Positions 1,332 to 29,652 of a DNA stretch of 33,888 nt are shown here, piece by piece. The DNA comes from Parabacteroides sp. (GTDB lineage Bacteria; Bacteroidota; Bacteroidia; Bacteroidales; Tannerellaceae): assembly GCA_021204335.1 (NCBI GenBank), contig JAJPZM010000066.1:1-33888 (forward strand). Reading direction: 5' to 3'. Position 1 is the first letter of the stretch, and every line of letters starts with the position of its first letter. Both the position numbers and the translations under genes were made by a program. A model generated the notes under the pieces. The model saw only the letters and a program-made list of their open reading frames with translations, did not search any database and was not told the origin of the DNA.

Positions 1332-1943
1332 TTAACATTCGTTAGCCAAAACGAATAGTAATATAGCCAATAAATGATCATCGGACAATTTCTGTTTCAA
1401 AAAACGTAATGAACGGCAAAGTTGAGTCTCGACTGTTTTCTCGGAGATCGACAGGCGAGCCGCTATTTCTTTATTCGATAAGTTCTCTTTCCTGCTCAAT
1501 TCAAATATTTTTTTTCGTGACAGGGGTAATTGTTCGATCAGGGAATCGATATAGAGACGAAGCGAATCTGCGTCCAACTTTTCTTCCATCAGGAAGTCTT
1601 CATCGGACTGTTGTTGTGATAATGCATGAAATGCCGATTCAGACAGCAGGCGATTTTCAGTTTCTTTATAGACCATATTGCGGGCTATGGTAAACAGATA
1701 AGCATCAAAACCTTTATCCAAATCAATCGATTCACGTCTTTCCCATATCTTCATGAAAACACTTTGGGTAATATCCTCCGATAAAATCCTGTCGTATAAT
1801 AGTGAGTTGATAAAGTTAAAGACATGTGAATTGTATTTCCAGTAAATGGATTCGAAAGCTGTTTCATCACCTTCCTTCAGGCGCTTTAATACAACTGCAT
1901 CTATGCTTTTCAGTGTGTGCTTCTCCATATCCTCCTTCTGCAA
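1332..1943 (-). CDS. RNA polymerase ECF-type sigma-70 factor
   Basis: Sigma-70 region 2 (YKYNSHVFNFINSLLYDRILSEDITQSVFMKIWERR) and region 4 (LPLSRKKIFELSRKENLSNKEIAARLSISEKTVETQL). Likely start is the Met at 1928. Confidence 0.93.
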   Translation of the reverse strand: MQKEDMEKHTLKSIDAVVLKRLKEGDETAFESIYWKYNSHVFNFINSLLYDRILSEDITQSVFMKIWERRESIDLDKGFDAYLFTIARNMVYKETENRLLSESAFHALSQQQSDEDFLMEEKLDADSLRLYIDSLIEQLPLSRKKIFELSRKENLSNKEIAARLSISEKTVETQLCRSLRFLKQKLSDDHLLAILLFVLANEC

Positions 1944-2017: not shown

Positions 2018-2116
2018 ATAAAAAGGAAGAAGAGAGAATCTTGCCAGACCCTCTCTTCTAAAATGTGTGATTCAATTAAACACCCATTGCCGTGGGATTA
2101 TGTTTAATCTTAAAAC
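2018..2116 (-). ncRNA. Putative small structured RNA, copy L (inverted paralogue of 14684-14795)
   Basis: Minus strand GTTTTAAGATTAAACATAATCCCACGGCAATGGGTGTTTAATTGAATCACACATTTTAGAAGAGAGGGTCTGGCAAGATTCTCTCTTCTTCCTTTTTATT. Hairpin AAACA[uaau]CCCA-cggcaa-UGGGUGUUU; terminator 14-bp stem with GGCA loop and U-run; TACTTTTG -7 motif at 2121-2128, 4 nt before the conserved block. Confidence 0.6.
2020..2059 (-). terminator. Intrinsic terminator of putative sRNA copy L
   Basis: Minus strand AGAAGAGAGGGTCT-GGCA-AGATTCTCTCTTCT (14-bp stem, two G.U) then TCCTTTTT. Confidence 0.75.
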
Positions 2117-2120
2117 GCAC

Positions 2121-2128
2121 CAAAAGTA
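2121..2128 (-). promoter_or_regulatory. -7 promoter element (TACTTTTG) for putative sRNA copy L
   Basis: Matches TAnnTTTG; conserved RNA block begins 4 nt downstream. Confidence 0.45.
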
Positions 2129-2203
2129 TAAATAATTGGGCGATAGGTCTCTATCCGAAGGTGAAAAGAACTATAATAATTACAAATTAGCCTCTGCTGC
2201 GCG

Positions 2204-3804
2204 TTATTTTATCCGCTCGAACCAAGGCAACCTCTCGAGTGGAGTATTTACCTCTATCGTTTTGGGACCACGGAACTTCTTGCCAGTATCGTCTTTCCAT
2301 TCCCCCTTAGGCAACATCACCGTACGGGTATGTTCCCGGGTAACGACCGGAGCTACCAGATATTTATCGCCCAGCATAAACTGGTCTTTGCAATCGATAA
2401 AGCCTTGGTGCGGGAAAGCATATTCCATGTGACGGATAATCGGTTCGCCGGACAGAGCTGACCGGCACGCCTGTTCAAGGATATAGGCTCTCATCTGTTC
2501 GTGCAGGTGGGCGTAATTGCGGCAGATTGCCAGATGCTTTTCATCCAGGATGCGCCAGGGAGCGACGGAGAACTGCATCATAGGCATTAAAGCATGCACC
2601 TGGCAGGAACGGACAATCAACTCCTGGTCAAGCTTGGTCTGGTCGACTCCCAGGAAAGAGCCGAACTGTCCGCCGCCAATCATATCGGGACAGGTGTATG
2701 CATAGCCCAGCAGGCCGGCGGCAATCATATCGGGAATTAACAGCCCCATGGCATTCCAGGAATAATCCTTGTCGCCCAGCCGTTGCACAAGCGCCTGTCC
2801 GCCCATCTTCCAGCCGGCACGATATTCATTATAAGGGAAGTCGAGGCCGATCTTCGCCCAATATTCGCACATATCGACCGAGGTGGCCGACTTATCGTAA
2901 AACTCCAGCGAAGGGTCATTGTAATGGCCTATGTCGCCGGCGTCGAACTTAAAACCATCCACTCCGTATTTCTCCTGTGTAGCGCGCAATTGTTGTTTCA
3001 GATGTTCGGCAGCAGCCGGGTTGCTTAAATCGTAGCAGGCGCTATATCCGTTCCACCAGGGGATGATGGCAGCCTCGTTGGTCCCCTTCCGTTTGATCAG
3101 ATATCCTTTCTGCTGCAACTCGCGGAACTCCGGGCTGTCCGGGCTTACGAACGGACATATCCAAAGCATGATGCGGAAGCCGTCTTTATGAAGCTGTTCG
3201 ATCATCCCTTTCGGATCGGGGAAACGCTCCGGCTTGAAATCGAAATTGCCATAATATTTCTGCCAGTTATCGTCGACCATGAATACGCCAACAGGGAATC
3301 GTTCTTCAAAATGTTGTCTGCATATTTGAGAATATCTTCCTGATTCTGGTTATACATCAACTCGATCCATGTATTATACTGGGGTATGGAGAAAAACAGG
3401 GAGTCGGGTAGCTTACCCGAAGGCGGAAAGTGCTTTGCGGAAGCAGCCAGATAGGCATCTTTCAGGGTGTTGCCGGCAAGCACCGGTTCCAGACTTTCAT
3501 AATCGGAATAGATGCGTAAATCCCCGTTCTCCACTTTAAAGGAGAAAGGCTTGTCGCTCCAGATATACCGTCCCTGGGAAGAGACGAGCAACGGTACATT
3601 CTGATTATTCAGGTTCTCTGCGGCAAGGTCGAACAAGCGCAGATCCTTAAAAGGCATTTGGGAGCCTAATCCTACCATGCCACCCCACCATTTTTCGTTT
3701 TCCAGCGAAGTGATTCTGGATTCGTATTTGCTCCCTGCCCAGCCGGGTAATATCCCCAAAAGAAGGGATAAGGCTACCAAAAAGACTTTCATTGAATGCT
3801 TCAT
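2204..3804 (-). pseudogene. Glycoside hydrolase family 31-like (alpha-glucosidase/xylosidase), frameshifted
   Basis: N-part 3202..3804 and C-part 2204..3280 join as ..NILKN[G]FPVGVFMVDDNWQKYYGNFDFKPERFPDPKGMIEQLHKDGFRIMLW.. if one base is restored near 3297-3301. GH31 motif DGFKFDAGD present. Confidence 0.85.
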
Positions 3805-3847
3805 GTTTGTTAGATTAGTTGATTGTCTTCACAAAGATAAAGCATTT

Positions 3848-6264
3848 TTACTTGATTGCCAACTCGACAGTTGCTGATTGCAACAGTGGGGAGGTTAATT
3901 TCACCTTAACCGTGCCCTCCTTATCCGTCACCTTCAAATAACCGACCAGCTTTCCCGACCGGCAACGCAGTCTGGTGCCTTTATAATTATCCGTCACGTT
4001 AGAGCCGCCGTTTTCCATGCCGACCAGACGGGCAGGGCCTTCCAGGTGGCAGGTCACTTCGTTGTCTGCCAGAACGACAGGGATATTGTTTTCATCCACA
4101 ACCTGAATCAGTAACTGCAAGAGGGTGTCTTTCCCGACCTGTTCTTCTTCAAAGAAAGAAGCTTTCAAGGCATAAGGGCGTCCGGACGTTTGTATCTTGT
4201 CTTTAGCTGCAGCCTTGCCGTCGTTGTAGGCAACCACTTCCAATACTCCGGGTTTATAAGGGATGTCCCAGGAGATAACAGCCGTTTGGTCATCGTAAGG
4301 CTTACGTTCGCCCACCAGTTCCCCGTTCAGGTAAAGTTTGGCTTCCCGGCAATTCGTGTAAGCAACGACTCGGATCGTTTCTCCCGCTTCGTAATTCCAG
4401 ACGGCCGGCGCATTCGTATCCATCCAGCGGTTTCGTCCGGCAGGTTGATAAGTACCCAGATAGGCAACCGGAGCGTCCGACCATAAAGCGCGCTGGAAAT
4501 AGCCGCTTGGTTTTATATTCCTGCCATATCCACCAGTCCGGCTGTAGAACCGCGCGATGGCCAGGGGCCAGTTTTACCCAGAAAGTCATATCCCGCCCAG
4601 ATAAACTGGCCGAAAACATAGTCGTTATCGCGTACTGCTTTCCAGGCTTCCAGCCCGCGGCTCGTTTCGCTTCCGTAGAGAATACGGTCGGGATATTTCT
4701 CATGGTCTTGCTGATAGCGTTTTTCCGTATAGTTATAGCCTGCCACATCGAGCACCTTCGGATAATCGGTTTCGTTAGACATCACCGGGCCGGCAAGGGC
4801 GGCTGTCACCGGACGGGAGAGGTCGTGCTTTTTGGCTTCACGTACCAGGTTGCGTGCAATCTCGCCCAGACGTTCCGCCCGTGGTTGTCCTTTCTGGTAT
4901 CCTTTGACATGTTGCTGGCCGATACCTTCCTAGTTCAGGATAGGATGAGAATAGGGATCGTTGGGATAATCGACTTCATTTCCGATACTCCACATGATAA
5001 TGGAAGGATGGTTCCGGTCGTGGCGGATCATATCGGCCAGGTCGCGCTCCGCCCATTCACGGAAATAGCCGGCTGATCCCTGAAAACCGGGAATACCGTT
5101 ATTCCAGCCGGTGATCCATTTCTTTTTAGGATATTCCCACTCGTCGAATGCTTCATCTTTTACCAAAAGCCCTAACTCGTCGCAGAGATCGTATAGATAA
5201 GGAGCCTGCGGGTTATGGCTCAACCGGATGGCGTTACAGCCGATCTCTTTCAATACCGACAGGCGGCGGCGCCATACTTCTTTCGTCACGGCAGCTCCCA
5301 AGCATCCGCCATCGTGATGGATACATACCCCTTTGATCTTCCGGTTCTGCCCGTTCAAGGAGAATCCTTTGTCCGGGTCGAACGCCAGCGTGCGGATGCC
5401 GGCATGGGTTTCCGATTCGTCTATTACTTTCCCGTTTTGGGTAACAAGCGTCTTTATCGTATATAGATAAGGAGTTTCCAGATCCCACAGGACGGGAGAA
5501 GTTATCTGGCACGACTGTTCCAGCGTTTCCACCCGGTTGCCCTGCAAACTGATATTCTTACTGCTGCTTCCTACCTTACGATGTTCTTTGTCGAATACTT
5601 CCTGCTTTACGGTCAATGTCGCGGGTTTGTCTGTTGTATTATTCAGTTCCGTCCGAATGGCGAGCGTGGCATTCTTTCCCTTCACTTCCGCTTCATAGCT
5701 TACTCCCCACAGGTTGATATGAACCGGGTTGGCATAGACCAGGTATACATCTCTGTAAATGCCCGAACCGGTGTACCACCGGGAATCTGCCGATTGGGAA
5801 TGGTCGACCCGTACCGCCAGCACATTACGTCCGCCCCAGTTAATGTAGGGCGAAAGGTCGTACATGAAGGAGATATAGCCGTTCGGGCGTTTCTCGATCC
5901 ATTTCCTATTGATGAAGACTTCACTATTGTTGTACACGCCTTCAAAATAGATATAGGCTTTCTGTCCTTTCCGATCGGCCGGGACATCCAGTTCTTTCCG
6001 GTACCAGCCAATCCCACCGGGCAAGAAGCCGGTACGGCTGGCATTGTCGGGACTCGCTATCTGTTCTACACTCCAATCGTGGGGAAGATCCAGTGTCTTC
6101 CAGTCCGAATGATCGAAAAACTCTGCCCCGGCATAGTTGATATCCCCCAGATGGAAAAACCAGTTATCGTTAATTAATTTATCTTTACCAAATCCCTGCC
6201 CCCATACGTCAACTGAGAATAACTGCATCAACAGCAGCACAACTAAATACTTCGTGTTCTTCAT
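3848..6264 (-). pseudogene. Glycoside hydrolase family 2 (beta-galactosidase-like); one in-frame TAG and one frameshift
   Basis: GH2 core (RLSHNPQAPYLYDLCDELGLLVKDEAFDEW, IIMWSIGNEVDYPNDPYSHPILN). TAG at 4930-4932 in ..HPILN*EGIGQQHVKGY..; 1-nt loss near 4513-4520 before ..NIKPSGYFQRALWSDAPVAYLGTYQ.. Confidence 0.9.
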
Positions 6265-11329: not shown

Positions 11330-14300
11330 TTAAAATAATAGATTAACACCAAATGAATAGACTGCCACATGCGGGTAAGTCGATCTATCCCCGACCTTTG
11401 TTTCTGGATCCCATATTCTGAATTTAGTAAGAGTGAATAAATTTTCTCCTGACACCATCAAGCGGACTTTATCAATCCCCATTTTAGCAATATCGAACGT
11501 ATACCCGATTTGCAAATTCTTCAAACGTATATAAGATGCATTTTGTACCCAATGTTGCATGTTCCCATAGTTATACATCCAAGAATTGGTAATACGGGGA
11601 AAATAAGCGTTCGGATTCGGGTTTTCCGGATTAAAAGAATCAGTATAATGTTCTTTCAATGCAGAATAAATGCCCATAGGTATAATCAATTCATCTTTCA
11701 CATAACCATCCGCTTTTCCCACTCCCTGGAAAAAACAAGAAAAATCAAAATTTTTATAATTGAATCCCAGATTGATACCGAAAGTAAAACGGGGAATTGA
11801 ATTACCTATTACTGTTTTGTCTTCAGAATCTATCTTTCCATCATCATTTCTGTCTTTTATAATAACATCCCCGATATTCCAGTTTCCATTATAAGTTAGC
11901 ATCTGATCTTTATATTTTCATATTATTCTTGTGTAGTACAGATGTCCAATGTTTCCCAACCAAAAAGTGCATCGATCGGTTCTCCTTCAATTCTGGCCAT
12001 CAAATCTCCTGTCGGTGATTTATATCCTTTCAGGTCAGTGATCTTATTTTTGACATCCGAAAGATTGAAGCCTACAAAATAACTAAAATCCGTACCTATC
12101 TTATCACGCCAGTTGATCGACAAACCCCAACCTTTATTCTGCACGGAACCGGCGTTTTGCATGGGAGCATCTATACCTAAAGCCTTCGGTGCTTTCAGAG
12201 ATAATAAAATATCATCCGTATTTCTTTTATACCAGTCGAATGTTGTCTGTAATCGATTGTCAAACAAAGAGAAATCGACACCTAGGTTCAGGTTGGTAGA
12301 AGTTTCCCATGTTATATTAGGATTTCCTATTAATCTTTCCGCATATCCGGTGGAGATCACATTTCCAAAAATATAGCTATCACCTGATCCATAGGTTGAA
12401 TAATACTGGTAATCGTCTATTTGTTGATTACCTAATTGTCCCCAAGAGGCTCTTACTTTCAAATTCGGAACAATCGTTTTTACATTTTCAAAAAAGCTTC
12501 TTCTGAAATACGCCATCCTACAGAAAAAGAAGGGAATAAACCAAAGCGATTTCCTTTAGCAAACTTAGATGAACCGTCATATCTCAAATTGGCTTCTATC
12601 AGATATCTTTCTGCAAAAGAATAGTTCAAACGTCCGAAAACGGATGCCAACGCTGATTTGGTTGAATTACCTTCTGCACTGGCTGTATTCGGGTCTCCTG
12701 CATTTATCTCTGAAAAGTTATTATTTGGGAAATCCCTTCTGGAGGCTTTGGTATAGGCCCACTTGAATGTTTCAAGCGAACCTCCGGCCATCACCTTAAA
12801 GTAATGGGCATCAATCTGTTTTTCATAATTCATGGTAGCTGATGCAGTCAGGTTATTCCATTGTTCCCATTTGTCCATTTGCTTATTTCTTGCCACTACG
12901 TTAGTACCGGACTGACCTGCCGGTTCAAAAGACTTATAATCAACAGTCTTGTTAAATTGCTTGTTTCTATAACTGCTGGACTCGTAGGCAAATATTCCCT
13001 TAATGTTCAAACCTTCAACCAGATTAAACTCTGGACTGATCAAAGCGGAGATATTGTTATTATTTTTTATCCTGCGTCCATAATCATCTGTAACCATACG
13101 GACAGGATTAGTCGGAGCAGACAGATAAGACCATGTTCCGTCAGAATATTTTACCGGCATATATGGAACAGCCCTTCCTACACGTTGAAATGCCTTAAAA
13201 GAACCTCCATCACCGTCGATATCATCTGCATCGCCGGTGGTGTCGGTTTCCTGTCCGTTAAGATAAGTCAGGTTTACTCCCAGCTTAAACCACGATGTTA
13301 CTTTTGCTGTCGTATTAATTCTCAAATTATAACGCTCATAGGATGAATTAGGGATAATATCATCCTGCGACATATATCCCAAAGATGCCAGATAGGTAAT
13401 TCTGTCACTACCTCCCGCGAGAGAAACATTATGGGAATGCTGGAGAGCTGCAGAACGTAAAAATTCTTTATACCAATCGGTATTTCCTTCCAATAAGTCA
13501 GGATCTCCTCCGTTTTTCATTCGTTCTATTCTATCCTGGGGAAATAGAGAGGAAGACTTACCTTCGTTTTTTCATTGATTGGTTATACAATTCTCCATAC
13601 TGCCACGACTCTACCATCTGAGGCGTACGTATAGGTGTCTGAAAACCTATGTTTCCGGTGTAACTCAATGAAATTTTACCTTTCTCTCCTTTCTTGGTAG
13701 TAATCAGAACGACTTCATTAGCAGCTCGTGACCCATAGATAGAAGCAGATGCTGCATCTTTCAAAATAGAGATGCTTTCTACATCGGAAGGAACCACATC
13801 GTTAATGCTCATTGCAACACCATTAACCAGAACCAATGGGTCTGCATTTTGCCAAGTTCCTACATCTCTGATACGGATATTACCCTGATCGGCCTTAGGT
13901 TGCCCTGTATTCTGAGTGATCGTAACACCAGCAGCTTCTCCTGCCATTGCCTGCATCAGAGTTGTTACGGGTTTTGTTCCTATACGGGAAGATTTAATGC
14001 TCTCTACCGCACCTGTTAAATTCGTCTTCTTTTGAGTGCCATAACCTACTACAACGACCTCTTCAATACTTTGGGTATCTTCCTTCAATTGCACCATTAT
14101 ATTGTTTTTGCCATTCAAAGGAAAATTCTGGGCAATATAACCGATATAACTAATTTGCAAAATGGCATCCGGGGATGTTTCCGAACGAAATTGTCCATCT
14201 ATATCGGTAATAGTTCCATTGGTTGAACCTTTTTCTATTACATTAGCTCCTATGATCGGTTCCCCTGTAGCATCCTTGACTATACCGGTAATTATACGGC

Positions 14301-14674
14301 TTTGTTGGGGGACAGCTTTCTGGGGATTTACACTTAAGACGATATGACGGTCTTTAATTGTGTATTTCAAGCCTGTTTTCGAAACAATAGCATCCAGAAT
14401 ATCCTGAATACTCGCATTTTTTACTAATAGAAATTGTTTCATTCTTATTGATCTCTTCCAGATTATAAAAAAACAAGAATTCAGATTGTTTTTCTATTTG
14501 TTTCAGTACATTTTCCAATGTTTCATTTTTAGCTGAAACATTCAGTTTCGTTGTTTGTGCATAAGTTGCGGCTACTATCTGCGATAAACAGATGATTAGC
14601 ATTAACAAGGTTAATTTCATAATGTTTATAGTTCTTTTCAGGTTTACAGAAACAACTATACGTTGATTTTCCAT
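11330..14674 (-). pseudogene. SusC/RagA-family TonB-dependent receptor; one TAA and about four frameshifts
   Basis: Carboxypeptidase-regulatory-like domain (GIVKDATGEPIIGANVIEKGSTNGTITDIDG), TonB box region, plug (DAASASIYGSRAANEVVLITTKKG), SusC barrel end (FGVNLLF). TAA 11923; frameshifts near 11915, 12490, 13567, ~14425. Confidence 0.92.
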
Positions 14675-14683
14675 CCTTTGATT

Positions 14684-14795
14684 GTTTTAAGATTTAACAC
14701 ATATTCCACGGCAATGGAAATTTAATTGAATCACACATTTTAGAAGAGAGTATCCGGCAAGATGTTTCTCTTTCTTCTTAATTTCTTACATTATC
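14684..14795 (+). ncRNA. Putative cis-antisense small RNA in fecR-susC leader, copy R
   Basis: GTTTTAAGATTTAACACATATTCCACGGCAATGGAAATTTAATTGAATCACACATTTTAGAAGAGAGTATCCGGCAAGATGTTTCTCTTTCTTCTTAATTTC. Shares 30/30 nt core (14721-14750 vs 2051-2080, inverted) with copy L; CCTTTG 3 nt before the block. Terminator weaker than in copy L. Confidence 0.5.
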
Positions 14796-14835: not shown

Positions 14836-15813
14836 TTATTTTTCAGAAATTGTTACTCGCCGGTCGTCAATCTTGTATTTGACCGGAATAGACAGATTTA
14901 TGATTTCCATGATATCTTTTATGCTTTGTCCTCGATAGAATGTACCGGTAAACGTCCGGTTATTCAATGCCCCGGAATTAACTGCAAATTGTACTCCGTA
15001 GACATGACTTAACCTGGCAAGAATTGCTTTCAGGCTTTGTTCGTGGAAATAGTAATAACCGGCAGTCCAGGAAATGAATTGTTCTGCATCTACTTTATAC
15101 AAATAGGCAGATTGGGTATTACGGTTATACACAAACTGCTGATCGGGTTTCAGGATTGTCGGTTTAGCGATATTCTGTGTTGTCAGGCGAACCGATCCAT
15201 CCAGCAAAGTGGTTATTACCAAAGAATCTAAAGGATAAGCCATTACATTAAACTTGGTACCTAAAACCTCGATATCCTGTTCTTTCGTTTTTACTACAAA
15301 GGGTTTGTTTTTCTGTTTTGTCACCTCGAAGTAAGCTTCCCCTTCCAGATAAACGATACGCTTGTCTTTCCCAAAATCTTTGTCATAATGGAATGTGGTT
15401 TTCGAACCCAGGCTGACATGTGTTCCATCCGGCAGTTCTACTACATCGGCTTCCAACCCATCTCCTCCGATATATCTGGAATACATCCCATTGTCTGTCT
15501 CATTAATAAAAAGGAAATAGGCCGAACTGGCAGCCACCGCAACTATAACAGCTGCGGCATAGCTTACTACACGAAGCCAAATATTAGACTTATGGGGAGA
15601 ACGATTCTTCTCATCCAGCAAACGCTGCCAGCTTTCAGCAATATCCAGCGACTTGCCGACTGCTAATCCGGCATCATACATTGCCTTAATCTCGAAGAAC
15701 AACTCTTTATTGGATGTATTTTCATTCACCCAGGTATAAAAGAGTTCCGTTTCCTCTTTCGTGAGACTACCTTGCAAGTAATCTATAATTAGTTCTGTAT
15801 ATTCGTTTTTCAT
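14836..15813 (-). CDS. FecR-family anti-sigma factor (intact)
   Basis: N-terminal domain, TM segment, FecR core (VELPDGTHVSLGSKTTFHYDKDFG..EAYFEVTKQKNKPFVVKTKEQDIEVLGTKFNVMAY). Confidence 0.92.
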   Translation of the reverse strand: MKNEYTELIIDYLQGSLTKEETELFYTWVNENTSNKELFFEIKAMYDAGLAVGKSLDIAESWQRLLDEKNRSPHKSNIWLRVVSYAAAVIVAVAASSAYFLFINETDNGMYSRYIGGDGLEADVVELPDGTHVSLGSKTTFHYDKDFGKDKRIVYLEGEAYFEVTKQKNKPFVVKTKEQDIEVLGTKFNVMAYPLDSLVITTLLDGSVRLTTQNIAKPTILKPDQQFVYNRNTQSAYLYKVDAEQFISWTAGYYYFHEQSLKAILARLSHVYGVQFAVNSGALNNRTFTGTFYRGQSIKDIMEIINLSIPVKYKIDDRRVTISEK

Positions 15814-16089: not shown

Positions 16090-19000
16090 ATGAACAAGAA
16101 ACTTATTCTTTCCTTGCTCGCTTTAGCCGGTGTCCCTGCCTTACTAATGGCAGCGGATGATGCACGCCTGTTGCGCTTCCCGGCTACAAATGGAAACGAG
16201 ATTGTATTCTCGTATGCGGGCGATTTGTATAAAGTTCCTGTAAATGGAGGAGAAGCACAGCGATTAACTTCGCATGTAGGCTACGAAATGTTTCCACGAT
16301 TCTCCCCTGATGGAAAAACAATTGCCTTTACCGGGCAGTATGATGGTAATACCGAAGTATTTACCATGCCTTCAACCGGCGGTGAACCTTTGCGCGTAAC
16401 TTATACGGCCACAAACTCACGCGATGACCTGGGCGATCGTATGGGACCCAATAATATTGTCCTGACTTGGACGCCTGATGGCAATAAAATAGTCTATCGC
16501 AACCGCATCAGCACAGGTTTTGACGGAAAACTTTATACGGTAGATAAGGACGGTGGGTTGTCGGAAGTTATTCCATTGCCCGAAGGTGGTTTTTGCAGCT
16601 ATTCGCCCGATGGAAAGCAGTTGGCCTACAATCGTGTAATGCGCGAGTTCCGTACCTGGAAGTATTATAAGGGTGGTATGGCAGACGATGTGTGGATTTA
16701 TAATCCGGAAAAACAATCCGTCGAAAATATAACGAATAATCCGGCACAGGATATTATCCCGATGTGGATCGGTGATGAAATTTTCTACCTTTCCGACCGC
16801 GACCGTACGATGAACATTTTTGTTTATAATACAAAGACGAAGCAGACTACTAAAGTCACTAATTTTACGGAATACGATGTTAAATTCCCCAGTGCAAATG
16901 GCAATACCATTGTATTTGAGAATGGCGGCTACATCTATAAGATGGATGCAACGGCCAAAAAACCGGAAAAGGTGGATATCCGCTTGGCTTCCGATAATAT
17001 ATATGCCCGCAGTGAGATAAAAGACGGTGCCAAATATATCACCGAAGCTAGTATATCTCCTGACGGCGAACGTATTGTGGTAACCTCACGCGGAGAAGTG
17101 TTCAACTTGCCGGTGGATAAAGGAGTAACAAAGAACATCACCCGCTCGCCGGGTCAGCATGACCGCGAGGCATAATGGTCGCCCGACGGAAAGCTGATCG
17201 CTTATATTCTGACGGAACCGGCGAGACGGAATTATATATGCAAGATGCTACGGGTGGTGAACCGGTGCAACTCACAAAGAATAACGATACCTATATCCGT
17301 TCTTTCGAATGGAGTCCCGACTCGAAAACGATTGTTTATACTGACCGTAAGAATCGTATTAATTTGCTGGATATTGCATCTAAGCAAGTCGCTCTGGTTA
17401 TTCAGGATCCGATGGCAGAAATAAGAGATGTCACCTTTTCTCCTGATAGTAAATGGCTGACTTATTCGCGTCCGGCTAGTAATGAGCATAGCATTGTTTA
17501 TGTGTATAATATTGCCGATAAGAAAGAATATCCGGTGACTGATAAATGGTGCGACTCCTCTAATCCTGTATTCAGCAACGACGGTAAATATTTGATATTT
17601 TCTTCCACCCGCGATTTCAATCCGACTTACGGCTCACTCGAATGGAACCATGTTTATAATAATATGAATGGTGTTTATCTGGCTCTGTTATCTCAGGATA
17701 CTCCTTCTCCTTTCCTGGAAAAAGATGCACAAGTAACAGTGAAAGAAGATAAAGCAAAGAAAGAAGAACCGAAGAAAGAGGAAAAGAAAGAAACTGCATC
17801 CGGAGTACCGACCGTAAAAATCGATATCGAAGGTATTTCCGACCGTATCATCCAGCTTCCGCTGGTAGGTTCATACTATTTTAATTTCTATGCGGATGGA
17901 AATAAAGTTTATTATTATACCCGTGGCGGTACAAAAGTGTACGACCTGGATAAACAGAAAGAGGATATCGTAGCCGAAGGCGCATCCATGTCTGTAGCTC
18001 CCGGAAGTAAAAAGGCTCTTTTCTATAAAGGCGAACAACTTTATGTGACCGATATCCCGTCGGGCAAAGTCGATCTGAGCGAAGCTGTCAACCTCTCGAA
18101 TATGAAGATCGCGACCGATTATCCGAAAGAATGGGCGCAAATCTTCGATGAGGCATGGCGCGCTTATCGTGATGGTTTCTATTCGGAAACAATGCATGGG
18201 GTAGACTGGAAAGCAATCAAAGAAAAATATGCCGTACTGCTTCCCTATGTGAAGACTCGTCTCGATTTGAACTATATCATCGGCGAAATGATCGGTGAGT
18301 TGAATTGTGGGCATGCATACGTTAATCCGGGTGAGCTCGATCGTCCTAAACGTATACAGACAGGCTTGCTGGGCGCTGAAATATCCCGAGACAAGAGTGG
18401 TTTCTTCCGTCTGGAAAAGATTCTGCCGGGTGCTTCCTGGAGCAAAGACCTGCGTTCGCCATTGACGGAGCCGGGTATCAATATGAAAGAGGGCGATTAT
18501 GTCGTAGCGATCGACGGTGTTGCTACCAACAGCGTAAAAGATATGTTCTCTTTGTTGGTTGGTAAGGCAAATGTTCCGACGGAACTCACGATTAACAGCA
18601 AGCCGCAACTGGCAGGAGCCCGTAAAGTGGTGATCAGTCCGCTTGCCGATGAATATCCGCTTTATCATTACAATTGGGTGCAGGATAATCTGAAGAAAGT
18701 AGAAAAGGCTAGCAATGGACGGATCGGTTACGTCTATATCCCGGATATGGGTGTAGAAGGTTTGAACGAATTTGCCCGTTATTTCTATCCCCAGTTGGAT
18801 AAGGAAGGTCTGATTATCGACGACCGTGCCAATGGCGGTGGTAATGTCTCTCCGATGATCCTCGAACGTCTTTCCCGCGAACCGTATCGTCTGACTATGC
18901 GTCGTGGTTCCAATCATATCGGAACCGTACCCGATGCTGTGCAAGTCGGTCCGAAAGTCTGCCTGATCAACAAATATTCTGCATCCGACGGCGACCTGTT

Positions 19001-19325
19001 CCCATGGGGCTTCCGTGTACTTGGCTTAGGGAAGCTGATCGGTACTCGTACCTGGGGTGGTATCGTTGGTATCAGTGGTCCGCTGCCTTATATGGATGGC
19101 ACCGATATCCGTGTACCGTTCTTTACCAGCTATGATCCGAAGACCGGCCAGTGGATTATCGAAAACCACGGTGTCGACCCGGATATCCTGATCGACAATG
19201 ATCCGATCAAAGAATGGAACGGTGAAGACCAGCAGCTCGACAGAGCAATCGAAGAGGTAATGAAAGAACTTCAGAACCGTAAGCCGTTGGCTCCGATACC
19301 GGCTCCGAGGGATTTCAGTAAATAA
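16090..19325 (+). pseudogene. Tricorn-like S41 family peptidase (PD40 propeller + PDZ + S41); one TAA and one frameshift
   Basis: PD40-type repeats (PRFSPDGKTIAFTGQYDGNTEVFTMPSTGGEP), S41 core (RIGYVYIPDMGVEGLNEFARYFYPQLDKEGLIIDDRANGGGNVSP). TAA at 17173-17175 (..DREA*WSPDGKLIAYI..), 1-nt loss near 17207. Confidence 0.92.
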
Positions 19326-26289: not shown

Positions 26290-29200
26290 ATGAGATTTTT
26301 ATTAACCAGGGCATATTATGTCCTTAAAAAACGGCAATTTAAGTCAATTAAATTAGTCTTGCTTATTTTATTGCTCTCTCCTTCACTGTTTGCGCAGATA
26401 ACAATTAATGTAAAGAACCAGTCCATACGCCAGACCTTGAAAGAGATTGAGCGTTTGGGTAACTACCAGTTCTTTTACAATAATGATTTATCCAGTCTGG
26501 ATAAGAAAGTATCCCTCTCTGTAAAAGATGAATCGATTGGGTCTGTAATGGATAAATTATTGGCAGATACGGATATCTCTTATAAACAGGATGAAAATAA
26601 TCTGATTGTACTAACCTTGAAAGCGACTGCTGCCGGACAACAGACAGGCGACAACGTCAAAATCAAAGGTTCTGTATTTGATGACAATGGAGATCCTGTT
26701 ATTGGTGCAAATATCGTCGTTGAGGGTTCCACCAACGGAACAATAACCGACATCGATGGAAACTTCTTTTTGCAGGTATCTAAGAATGCGTTACTGCATA
26801 TTTCTTACATCGGTTATCTGGATCAGAAGGTTAAGATAGGTAATAATACAAATATTCGCGTTGTACTGAAAGAAGATACACAAACACTGGATGAAGTAAT
26901 CGTGGTCGGTTGTGGTACAATGAAGAAAAGCGATATTACCGGATCTGTGGCTTCTGTGCGGTTGGATGAACTGAAAGATGGAGCCAGTACCTCGGTCGAC
27001 CAAATGCTTCTGGGTAAGAGTGCCGGTGTAAATGTCGTACAGAGCAGTGGTGAACCGGGTGGCGGTTTCTCTGTAAACATTCGTGGTGCAAGTTCTATCA
27101 ATGGCGGTGTCTCTCCGTTGTATGTAATCGATGGTGTGCCTATCGATAATTCCCGTCCTGTTTCACAGGGTTCGATTGTAGGGTTCAGTGATAACAGAAG
27201 TCCCAGAAACCCGATGTCGTCTATCAACCCTGCTGATATCGAATCGTTGGAAATCCTGAAAGATGCATCTGCTACCGCTATCTACGGGTCGAGAGGTGCG
27301 AATGGTGTTATCCTAATCACAACGAAAAGCGGTAAGGCTGAAAAGATGAAAGTAAGCTATTCCGGTTCTGTCGGGATCCAAAGCCCTTCCAACAAGCTCG
27401 ATTTGTTGAATGCCACCGATTATAAGAGAGTGCTGAATGAGATTATCGATGCAGGTGGCAGTAGCGAATCAAATCGGGTTGGGAATATTGCCAATGGCGG
27501 AATCGGTACCGACTGGCAGGATGAAGTAACCCGGCAAAATGCGATTACTCATGAACATCAATTATCATTCTCCGGTGGAAATAGTAAAACATTTTACTAT
27601 ACTTCATTTAACTATGTTAATCAGGAAGGTATTGTAAAGAATACCAGTTTCGAGAGACTGGGAGCACGTTTGAATTTAAAATCCGACATCAACAACAACT
27701 TAAAAATAGGAATGAATGTGACCGGTTCTTATATGAAAGACCATTTTGTCGGTAACGGTTTCGGTGTCAATGAAAATGCCGGTGTAATGTATACCGCCTA
27801 CAATTATGATCCGACTGTGGCTGTAAAGGATGAAGATGGTAAATATGCCTTATCCCCTATTCTGACACTCGATAATCCGATGGCTTTGGATGAAGGAATG
27901 ACTTCCTATTCCGATACTTACAGGATTCTGGCTTCTGCTTTCGGAGAATACTATATCACAAAAGATCTGTTCTTAAGATTAAACCTGGGTACTGACTTTA
28001 TGAATGAAAGCAGAAAGAGCTTTGTTTCAAGTCTGACCAAACAGGGTGGATTTTATGGTGGCATCGGATCAAACCAGAATTCAGAGAAAAGCAACTATGT
28101 CGTAGAAGGTACGGCTAATTATAGCAAAACTCTGAATAAACATAGTTTCGGTGGATTGGCCGGTATTTCCTATCAACGCTATGTAACCAGTTATCTTAAT
28201 AACAGGGCGGCCGATTTCCCTAACGAATCGTTAGGAGCGGAAAATCTGAACCTGGGAAATCAGGAAACATTCAGAATGCAAAACTCTGTAACGGGAAACA
28301 GGCTTGCCTCTTACATCGGTTGTGTAAATTATTCGTTTGATGATCGTTATCTGGCTACGGTAACGTTCAGAGCCGACGGTTCTTCCCGTTTCGGTAAGAA
28401 TAATAAATTCGGTTATTTCCCCTCTGCGGCTTTGGCATGGAGACTGTCTAATGAGGCTTTTCTGAAAAATATCAATCAGATCACTTCTCTGAAGCTTCGT
28501 TTGGGATGGGGTAGAACCGGTAATTAGGAAATTGGAGATTTCCCGGCACTCAGTACGTATCAGTCGGCCGGCTCTGCAATATGGGATGGTAAACAGGTTG
28601 TAGGTACCGGATCCGCTAAAATACCTAATCCCGATTTGAAATGGGAAACTACGGACCAAATAAATTTGGAACTTGATTTTGGCGTCTTTAATAACCGTAT
28701 CAGTGGTGGAATCGATTACTTCTGGAAAAAGACAACCGATATGCTTTTGCAGTTACCTGTACCCCAGTCGACCGGTTATAGCAGTATCCTGTCGAATGTC
28801 GGAAGAATCGATAATAAGGGTATCGAACTTTTCCTAAATACGGTAAATATCGATACAAAAGACTTTAAATGGGAGTCGAACATCACATTTTCTTCCATGA
28901 GAAATAAAGTAAAGGATTTGGGAGGTATCGATGAGATCATTGTCGGTGCCGGTTATACGCATGTCGAACAAGTGGCTATCCGTAAACCGGGTCTGCCATT
29001 GAACTCTTATTATGGTTGGGAAGTTGCAGGCGTATGGTAGGAAAATGATGATTTCAGTGAAATGAAAGAAGACTACAAACCGGGTGATTTGAAGTATGTC
29101 GACCAGAATAATGACGGTGTCATTAACGATGCCGACCGCGTGGTGCTGGGTGATTCATTCCCCGATTTCCAATGGTCTTTTGGCAATACATTTACTTATA

Positions 29201-29652
29201 AGAATTTCGATCTGTATGTATTCTTTGAAGGTGTTCAAGGGGTGGATATGCTGAACGGTAACCTGATCGACGGTTATTTCCCGATCAACTTCAGACGTAA
29301 TAAATTCGCTGAACCTTATTTGAACAGATGGACTCCGGATAATCCGACTAATCAATATCCGTCTTTTGTGGATCCGCTGAAGCAAGGTCGTAAGGTGGTT
29401 AACTCCCGCACCTTGTTGGATGCTTCGTATGTGAAGCTCAGAACCATCCGTTTGAGCTACAAAGTTCCTAAGTTCAGTAGTTTGATTCAGTCTTTGCAGG
29501 TGTATGTGGCAGCAGACAATCTGTTGACATTTACCGACTATGTTGGATTGGATCCGGCAGTGAACCCCAATAATAACTTTAACTTCAGAATGGATTTTAA
29601 TGCATATCCCAGTGCAAAATCATTCATTTTCGGTGCGAAGATCGATTTTTAA
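26290..29652 (+). pseudogene. SusC/RagA-family TonB-dependent receptor with two in-frame TAG codons, no frameshift
   Basis: All three ORFs in one frame; TAG 28525-28527 inside the SusC motif GWGRTGN*EIGDF, TAG 29038-29040 in GWEVAGVW*ENDDF. Confidence 0.93.

Follow-up and report, generated by a model that had tools for sequence, protein, structure and literature searches.

The window analysed here is the whole 33,888-nt stretch of a Parabacteroides sp. contig. Its minus strand carries PUL1, and past the GH31 gene at the end of PUL1 follow a small RNA gene, here called copy L, and an ECF sigma factor gene; a second copy of the small RNA, copy R, lies on the opposite strand at the head of PUL1 (Table 1). 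Many large genes of the window (GH31, GH2, SusC1, SusC2 and a protease-like gene) are split into adjacent frames in the regions 2204-6264, 11330-14674, 16090-19325 and 26290-29652, by sequencing errors or by gene decay, and the FecR and sigma genes are intact. The junctions of the broken genes, when printed, revealed no consistent homopolymer.

Table 1. Features of the window that bear on the two sRNA copies
Feature	Position	Strand	Basis
ECF sigma factor gene (sigma0), located downstream of copy L; has a TACCTTTG box of its own	1332..1943	-	Pfam; sequence
Copy L, predicted orphan DonS-type sRNA gene of ~95 nt, 5' end at ~2116	2020..2116	-	Covariance model, 105.6 bits; fold z -5.1; conserved in the P. 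gordonii orphan
Terminator hairpin of copy L, 14 bp plus T-run	2028..2059	-	Terminator calling
-7 box of copy L, TACTTTTG, consensus TAnnTTTG	2121..2128 (box reads 2128-2121)	-	Read directly
Decayed remnant of the start of a lost susC, ATG changed to ATA	2129..2190	+	Homologous to the MNNQRIVV...LKRTI start in relatives (alignment)
GH31 gene, last in PUL1, one frame break	2204..3804	-	Pfam; 79-92% to P. gordonii
susC of PUL1, frame broken at several points; residues 1-86 share 80-86% identity with SusC from PULs a and b of relatives	11330..14674	-	
5' leader of PUL1 susC, with which copy L is predicted to pair (perfect core of 30 nt; duplex of -121.6 kcal/mol)	14684..14784	-	
Copy R, placed cis-antisense between fecR and susC	14684..14784	+	Covariance model, 86.6 bits
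FecR anti-sigma gene of PUL1	14836..15813	-	Pfam FecR, FecR_C

The first-pass annotation had described an element of ~95 nt on the minus strand that matches the fecR-susC leader of PUL1 in inverted orientation, and this was confirmed. Copies L and R are 86% identical over 94 nt (BLAST, E=2e-22, far above chance), with an inverted similarity of 89% across 2038-2098 / 14703-14763, and the reported core of 30 identical nucleotides (2051-2080 / 14721-14750) is exact. Neither BLAST nor a covariance model gives any further significant copy in the 5.1-Mb genome. The proposed layout of a stand-alone sRNA gene is supported for copy L by its TACTTTTG box, a 5' hairpin (hairpin 1) with a CGGCAA loop, the 14-bp terminator with its T-run, and a strongly negative z-score of the MFE fold (-5.1, compared with -2.0 for copy R). 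It should be noted that copy L was also considered as the leader of sigma0; this was rejected as the main reading, as sigma0 has its own TAnnTTTG box past the terminator of the sRNA.

Both copies belong to a larger family. An alignment of 23 copies, from which the covariance model was also built, contains a 13-bp 5' hairpin with covariation and a terminator hairpin, together comprising 26 pairs. Base pairing is present in 96.8% of the alignment cells, two-sided changes occur at eight of the 26 pairs, and none of 500 shuffles reached the observed values. The earlier observation that the differences between L and R preserve the structure holds in the relatives: of the 23 copies, 13 have U-A and 10 have C-G at one pair of the inner stem. 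Comparison across relatives, which had been suggested as a check, revealed covarying stems and recurring paired copies; the expected conservation of the TTTG motif was found as well, the TAnnTTTG box being present in copy L and in 18 of the 22 other aligned copies and lost solely in four b copies (winR, G018b, G021b and G023b). The two hairpins share the loop CGGCAA in the majority of copies (19/23 and 18/23), and this repetition suggests a kissing or a protein-binding element.

The covariance model matches 25 of 125 Tannerellaceae genomes, representing 7 of 16 genera; homologues were found in P. gordonii, P. goldsteinii, P. faecis, P. acidifaciens, P. massiliensis and others, and also in other genera of the family Tannerellaceae. 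The named records matched by a pattern scan place the window in Parabacteroides, not in Bacteroides. An order-wide sample of 394 genomes yielded, at E<=0.01, two Parabacteroides genomes, including that of the window, and one weak match (L084). Among 28 inspected loci with weak matches outside the Tannerellaceae, two lie at fecR-susC junctions (L084 and the weaker L156), and a distant relationship of the family to other DonS-type RNAs is possible. An Rfam search of the window at E<=1 gave no match for the sRNA family and returned only a spurious match to a snoRNA. Judged from these comparisons, this is an uncatalogued, covariation-supported sRNA family which, among the sampled genomes, hardly occurs beyond Tannerellaceae. 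Spread by phages, as for FopS, was considered and rejected, since neither GenBank phages (searched for the sRNA) nor IMG/VR (searched for the core pattern) contained a match.

The genomic position of the family is highly uniform. Among 27 clear copies (the 23 aligned ones plus L069, L071, L072 and L073), 25 face the head of a susC gene in antisense, their -7 box being located at its start codon; 24 lie between fecR and susC and one (G089, L016) lies between a sigma gene and susC. The DonS-type position that had been attributed to copy R is thus the usual one. The two exceptions are copy L, which is not antisense to any intact susC and faces a susC scar only, and the copy of P. gordonii (L036:6325). 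According to PMC7366714, which recounts Cao et al. 2016, the DonS-type RNAs of Bacteroides measure 78-128 nt and are encoded divergently from the susC homologues of PULs, to which they are antisense; for DonS itself, repression of the PUL has been shown in B. fragilis (same account). The present family is alike in size and in its divergent, antisense position at susC; it differs in that it occurs essentially only in Tannerellaceae among the genomes sampled and in that copy L is devoid of a cis partner.

In B. thetaiotaomicron, the paralogous sRNAs FopS and GibS form a second known system (PMC11697453); they act in trans near the start codon of susC mRNAs, repressing them with involvement of the RRM protein RbpB. 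FopS RNAs start with a single-stranded seed, end in one terminator hairpin and are present in 12-15 copies per genome, and their authors state that an Rfam model has been deposited (PMC11697453). Paralogous sRNAs that target susC mRNAs, here by prediction, are common to both systems, and the genome studied here encodes RRM proteins too, three in number. However, in place of a single-stranded seed the Tannerellaceae family has the additional, covarying 5' hairpin of 13 bp in front of its terminator, and it has only 1-3 copies. Rfam gave no match to it at E<=1. Copy L and its relatives form a conserved Tannerellaceae family of predicted antisense RNAs of the DonS type, one orphaned member of which is probably trans-acting.

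The origin of the orphan can be read from synteny. P. goldsteinii and two relatives (G023, G021 and G031) have the order sigma0 (-), fecR (+), sRNA a (-), susC (+), susD, further genes and GH31, and in G021 and G023 the GH31 gene is convergent and is the last gene of a neighbouring PUL, PUL b. The window has copy L immediately next to sigma0 and GH31 after that, with fecR, susC and the downstream genes of PUL a missing. P. gordonii lacks the same PUL a genes save one of 722 aa, and a convergent gene lies between its GH31 gene and its orphan sRNA; its susC scar has retained the ATG, followed by an early stop, where the scar of the window begins with ATA. No close homologue of SusC_a was found in the genome of the window (best match 46%, in an assembly that is 95.5% complete), which indicates that the SusC_a orthologue was lost. 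By this comparison, copy L is the head sRNA of a second, deleted PUL, and its gene stayed beside the decayed start of susC. The earlier view of copy L as a second copy at the distal end of PUL1 must be replaced: copy L is the head element of a deleted neighbour. The related expectation of a recurrent pair flanking a PUL was correct in that paired copies recur, but the pair belongs to two neighbouring PULs, each with its own head sRNA.

In an rpoB tree, P. gordonii falls beside P. goldsteinii, and the species of the window beside P. faecis (support 95 and 89). Together with the different extents of the deletions, this suggests two independent losses, both of which kept the sRNA, although horizontal transfer could mislead here. 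Common ancestry of the two orphans was rejected on account of these extents and of the intact locus that is kept by P. goldsteinii, the rpoB neighbour of P. gordonii. It had been considered since the two orphans carry the same G-C pair in the terminator.

A comparison of the two orphans revealed 82 of 90 identical positions in sRNA body, linker and terminator versus 28 of 46 in the susC scar (Fisher p=5e-5), so that in both cases the scar has decayed, the sRNA has not, and the orphan sRNA looks to be under selection. Between the intact a loci of G021 and G031 the corresponding values are 85/90 for the sRNA blocks and 44/46 for the susC start. Copy L might instead be a passive relic, left behind by the PUL deletion and having no selected role, whether or not it is transcribed. 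It is situated exactly at the expected head of the deleted PUL, only two species are involved, and no co-evolution of L and R is seen: they agree at 51/60 positions and L agrees with the b copies of other species at 50-52/60, so that two copies in one genome resemble each other no more than copies across genomes do. Nevertheless, we regard a passive relic as unlikely, at perhaps one chance in several, because the sRNA and the scar have diverged so unequally, because terminator and TAnnTTTG box are intact in both orphans, and because two apparently separate losses have both kept the sRNA.

Selection could also act on the terminator only, which would end transcription of the PUL1 operon and shield the sigma0 gene. 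It is the sole terminator called on the minus strand between GH31 and sigma0 and the best kept block of the two orphans (29/31), but such a role would leave the conservation of the -7 box and hairpin 1 (42/47) unexplained, and the convergent gene of P. gordonii separates GH31 from the orphan; we consider it improbable. The same arrangement might allow copy L to arise chiefly by release from the PUL1 mRNA at its 3' end and to feed back on the susC leader. Copy L is on the same strand as PUL1, 88 nt past GH31, and no terminator was called between the two, so that a read-through PUL1 mRNA would end at the terminator of copy L; moreover, a near-perfect target is present in the leader of that very operon. 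OppZ of Vibrio cholerae, an autoregulatory sRNA derived from a 3'UTR (PMC7398697), provides the precedent, and an sRNA at the end of an operon aimed at its own start would constitute the same circuit. Unlike OppZ, copy L possesses a promoter box of its own and originated as the head element of another PUL, and the geometry is not common to P. gordonii. Thus, an OppZ-like feedback from the end to the start of PUL1 is conceivable, but release from the mRNA as the main source of copy L appears to be the least probable of these alternatives.

The reading that we prefer, with a probability of about one half, is that the family is normally antisense to the susC leader and that the orphan, having survived the deletion of its PUL, most likely acts in trans on the susC leader of PUL1. 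At up to 3 mismatches, the only other site in the genome for the linker of copy L is the PUL1 susC leader, and no further trans targets were found at this threshold. The earlier claim that copy L RNA would carry a 30-nt perfect complement to this leader was upheld, this being the only strong complement in the genome outside L itself, and the predicted duplex of -121.6 kcal/mol compares with a mean of -33.6 kcal/mol for shuffled sRNA. The proposed silencing of PUL1 in trans fared less clearly: the sole strong complement and the conservation of the orphan next to a decayed flank speak for it, and the missing co-evolution of L and R speaks against it. Repression of PUL1 by copy L is a plausible and, in our view, the best reading. 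It should be noted that the several frame breaks in PUL1 susC make its function in this genome uncertain, which counts against a trans role.

From the family, its structure, the synteny, the deletion and the conservation of the orphans, all of which are established, we infer the following scheme of transcription, pairing in vivo and repression. Members of the family would be transcribed antisense to the susC leader from the box at the susC start codon and, by analogy with DonS, would repress susC. After the PUL of copy L had been deleted, the sRNA gene with promoter and terminator would have survived, and its RNA would pair with the PUL1 susC leader. As both RNAs are structured, pairing would have to begin at loops or linker, perhaps the CGGCAA/UUGCCG loops, and it would block SusC translation in the manner of FopS RNAs acting on susC mRNAs. 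The distance of copy L from its target excludes transcriptional interference by copy L.

Copy R differs in its signals. Its -7 box is degenerate (ATCCTTTG) and lacks the TA, its terminator is weak and its U-tract poor; the corresponding copies of P. gordonii, G021 and G023 also lost TAnnTTTG (ATCCTTTG or TACTCTAA) and have poor U-tracts, and all four copies have retained the sequence of the body in spite of the loss of the box. Copy R may thus be a weak or silent sRNA gene, the complement of which is still the susC leader. A division of roles can tentatively be proposed, in which L keeps promoter, structure and terminator and R survives as the target, so that deletion of a PUL would have converted a cis-antisense RNA into a trans-acting one, possibly as part of a feedback loop from the end to the start of the operon; we hold this to be somewhat doubtful. 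The comparisons suggest a local regulator that became a remote one, as copy L outlived its sugar-importer gene and matches only the neighbouring PUL. If copy L indeed acts in trans, the conversion is traceable by sequence in two species, with the ancestral state kept in relatives. In any case, an uncatalogued sRNA family of Parabacteroides and relatives is added to the DonS-type antisense RNAs.

The sRNA does not appear to travel alone. The SusC proteins of PUL a and PUL b are 75% identical in the first 120 residues and 28.5% beyond, SusC1 of the window is 80-86% identical to both across its first 86 residues, and FecR1 is 65-70% identical to both FecRs, whereas SusD reaches 22-25%. These values indicate that fecR, sRNA and the N-terminus of susC travel as a head cassette common to otherwise unrelated PULs. 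Cross-talk by the sRNA would thus be possible wherever two such heads coexist, and the shared cassette makes cross-talk between PULs testable. More generally, SusC proteins that share this sRNA (14354-14674; L033/L034) are ~75-86% identical in the first 86-120 residues and ~28-45% later, and the PUL head appears to recombine as a unit. P. faecis has three copies of the sRNA (L040:6525, L040:13529 and L039:6681), each at its own fecR-susC junction, within ~40 kb. The FecR2-susC2 interval of the window (26280-26165, minus strand) contains a further antisense sRNA-like element with a TAATTTTG box, hairpins and GGGATAGTGTCTGACACTGTCCC plus a T-run, which is unmatched by the covariance model of the family and represents another DonS-type layout.
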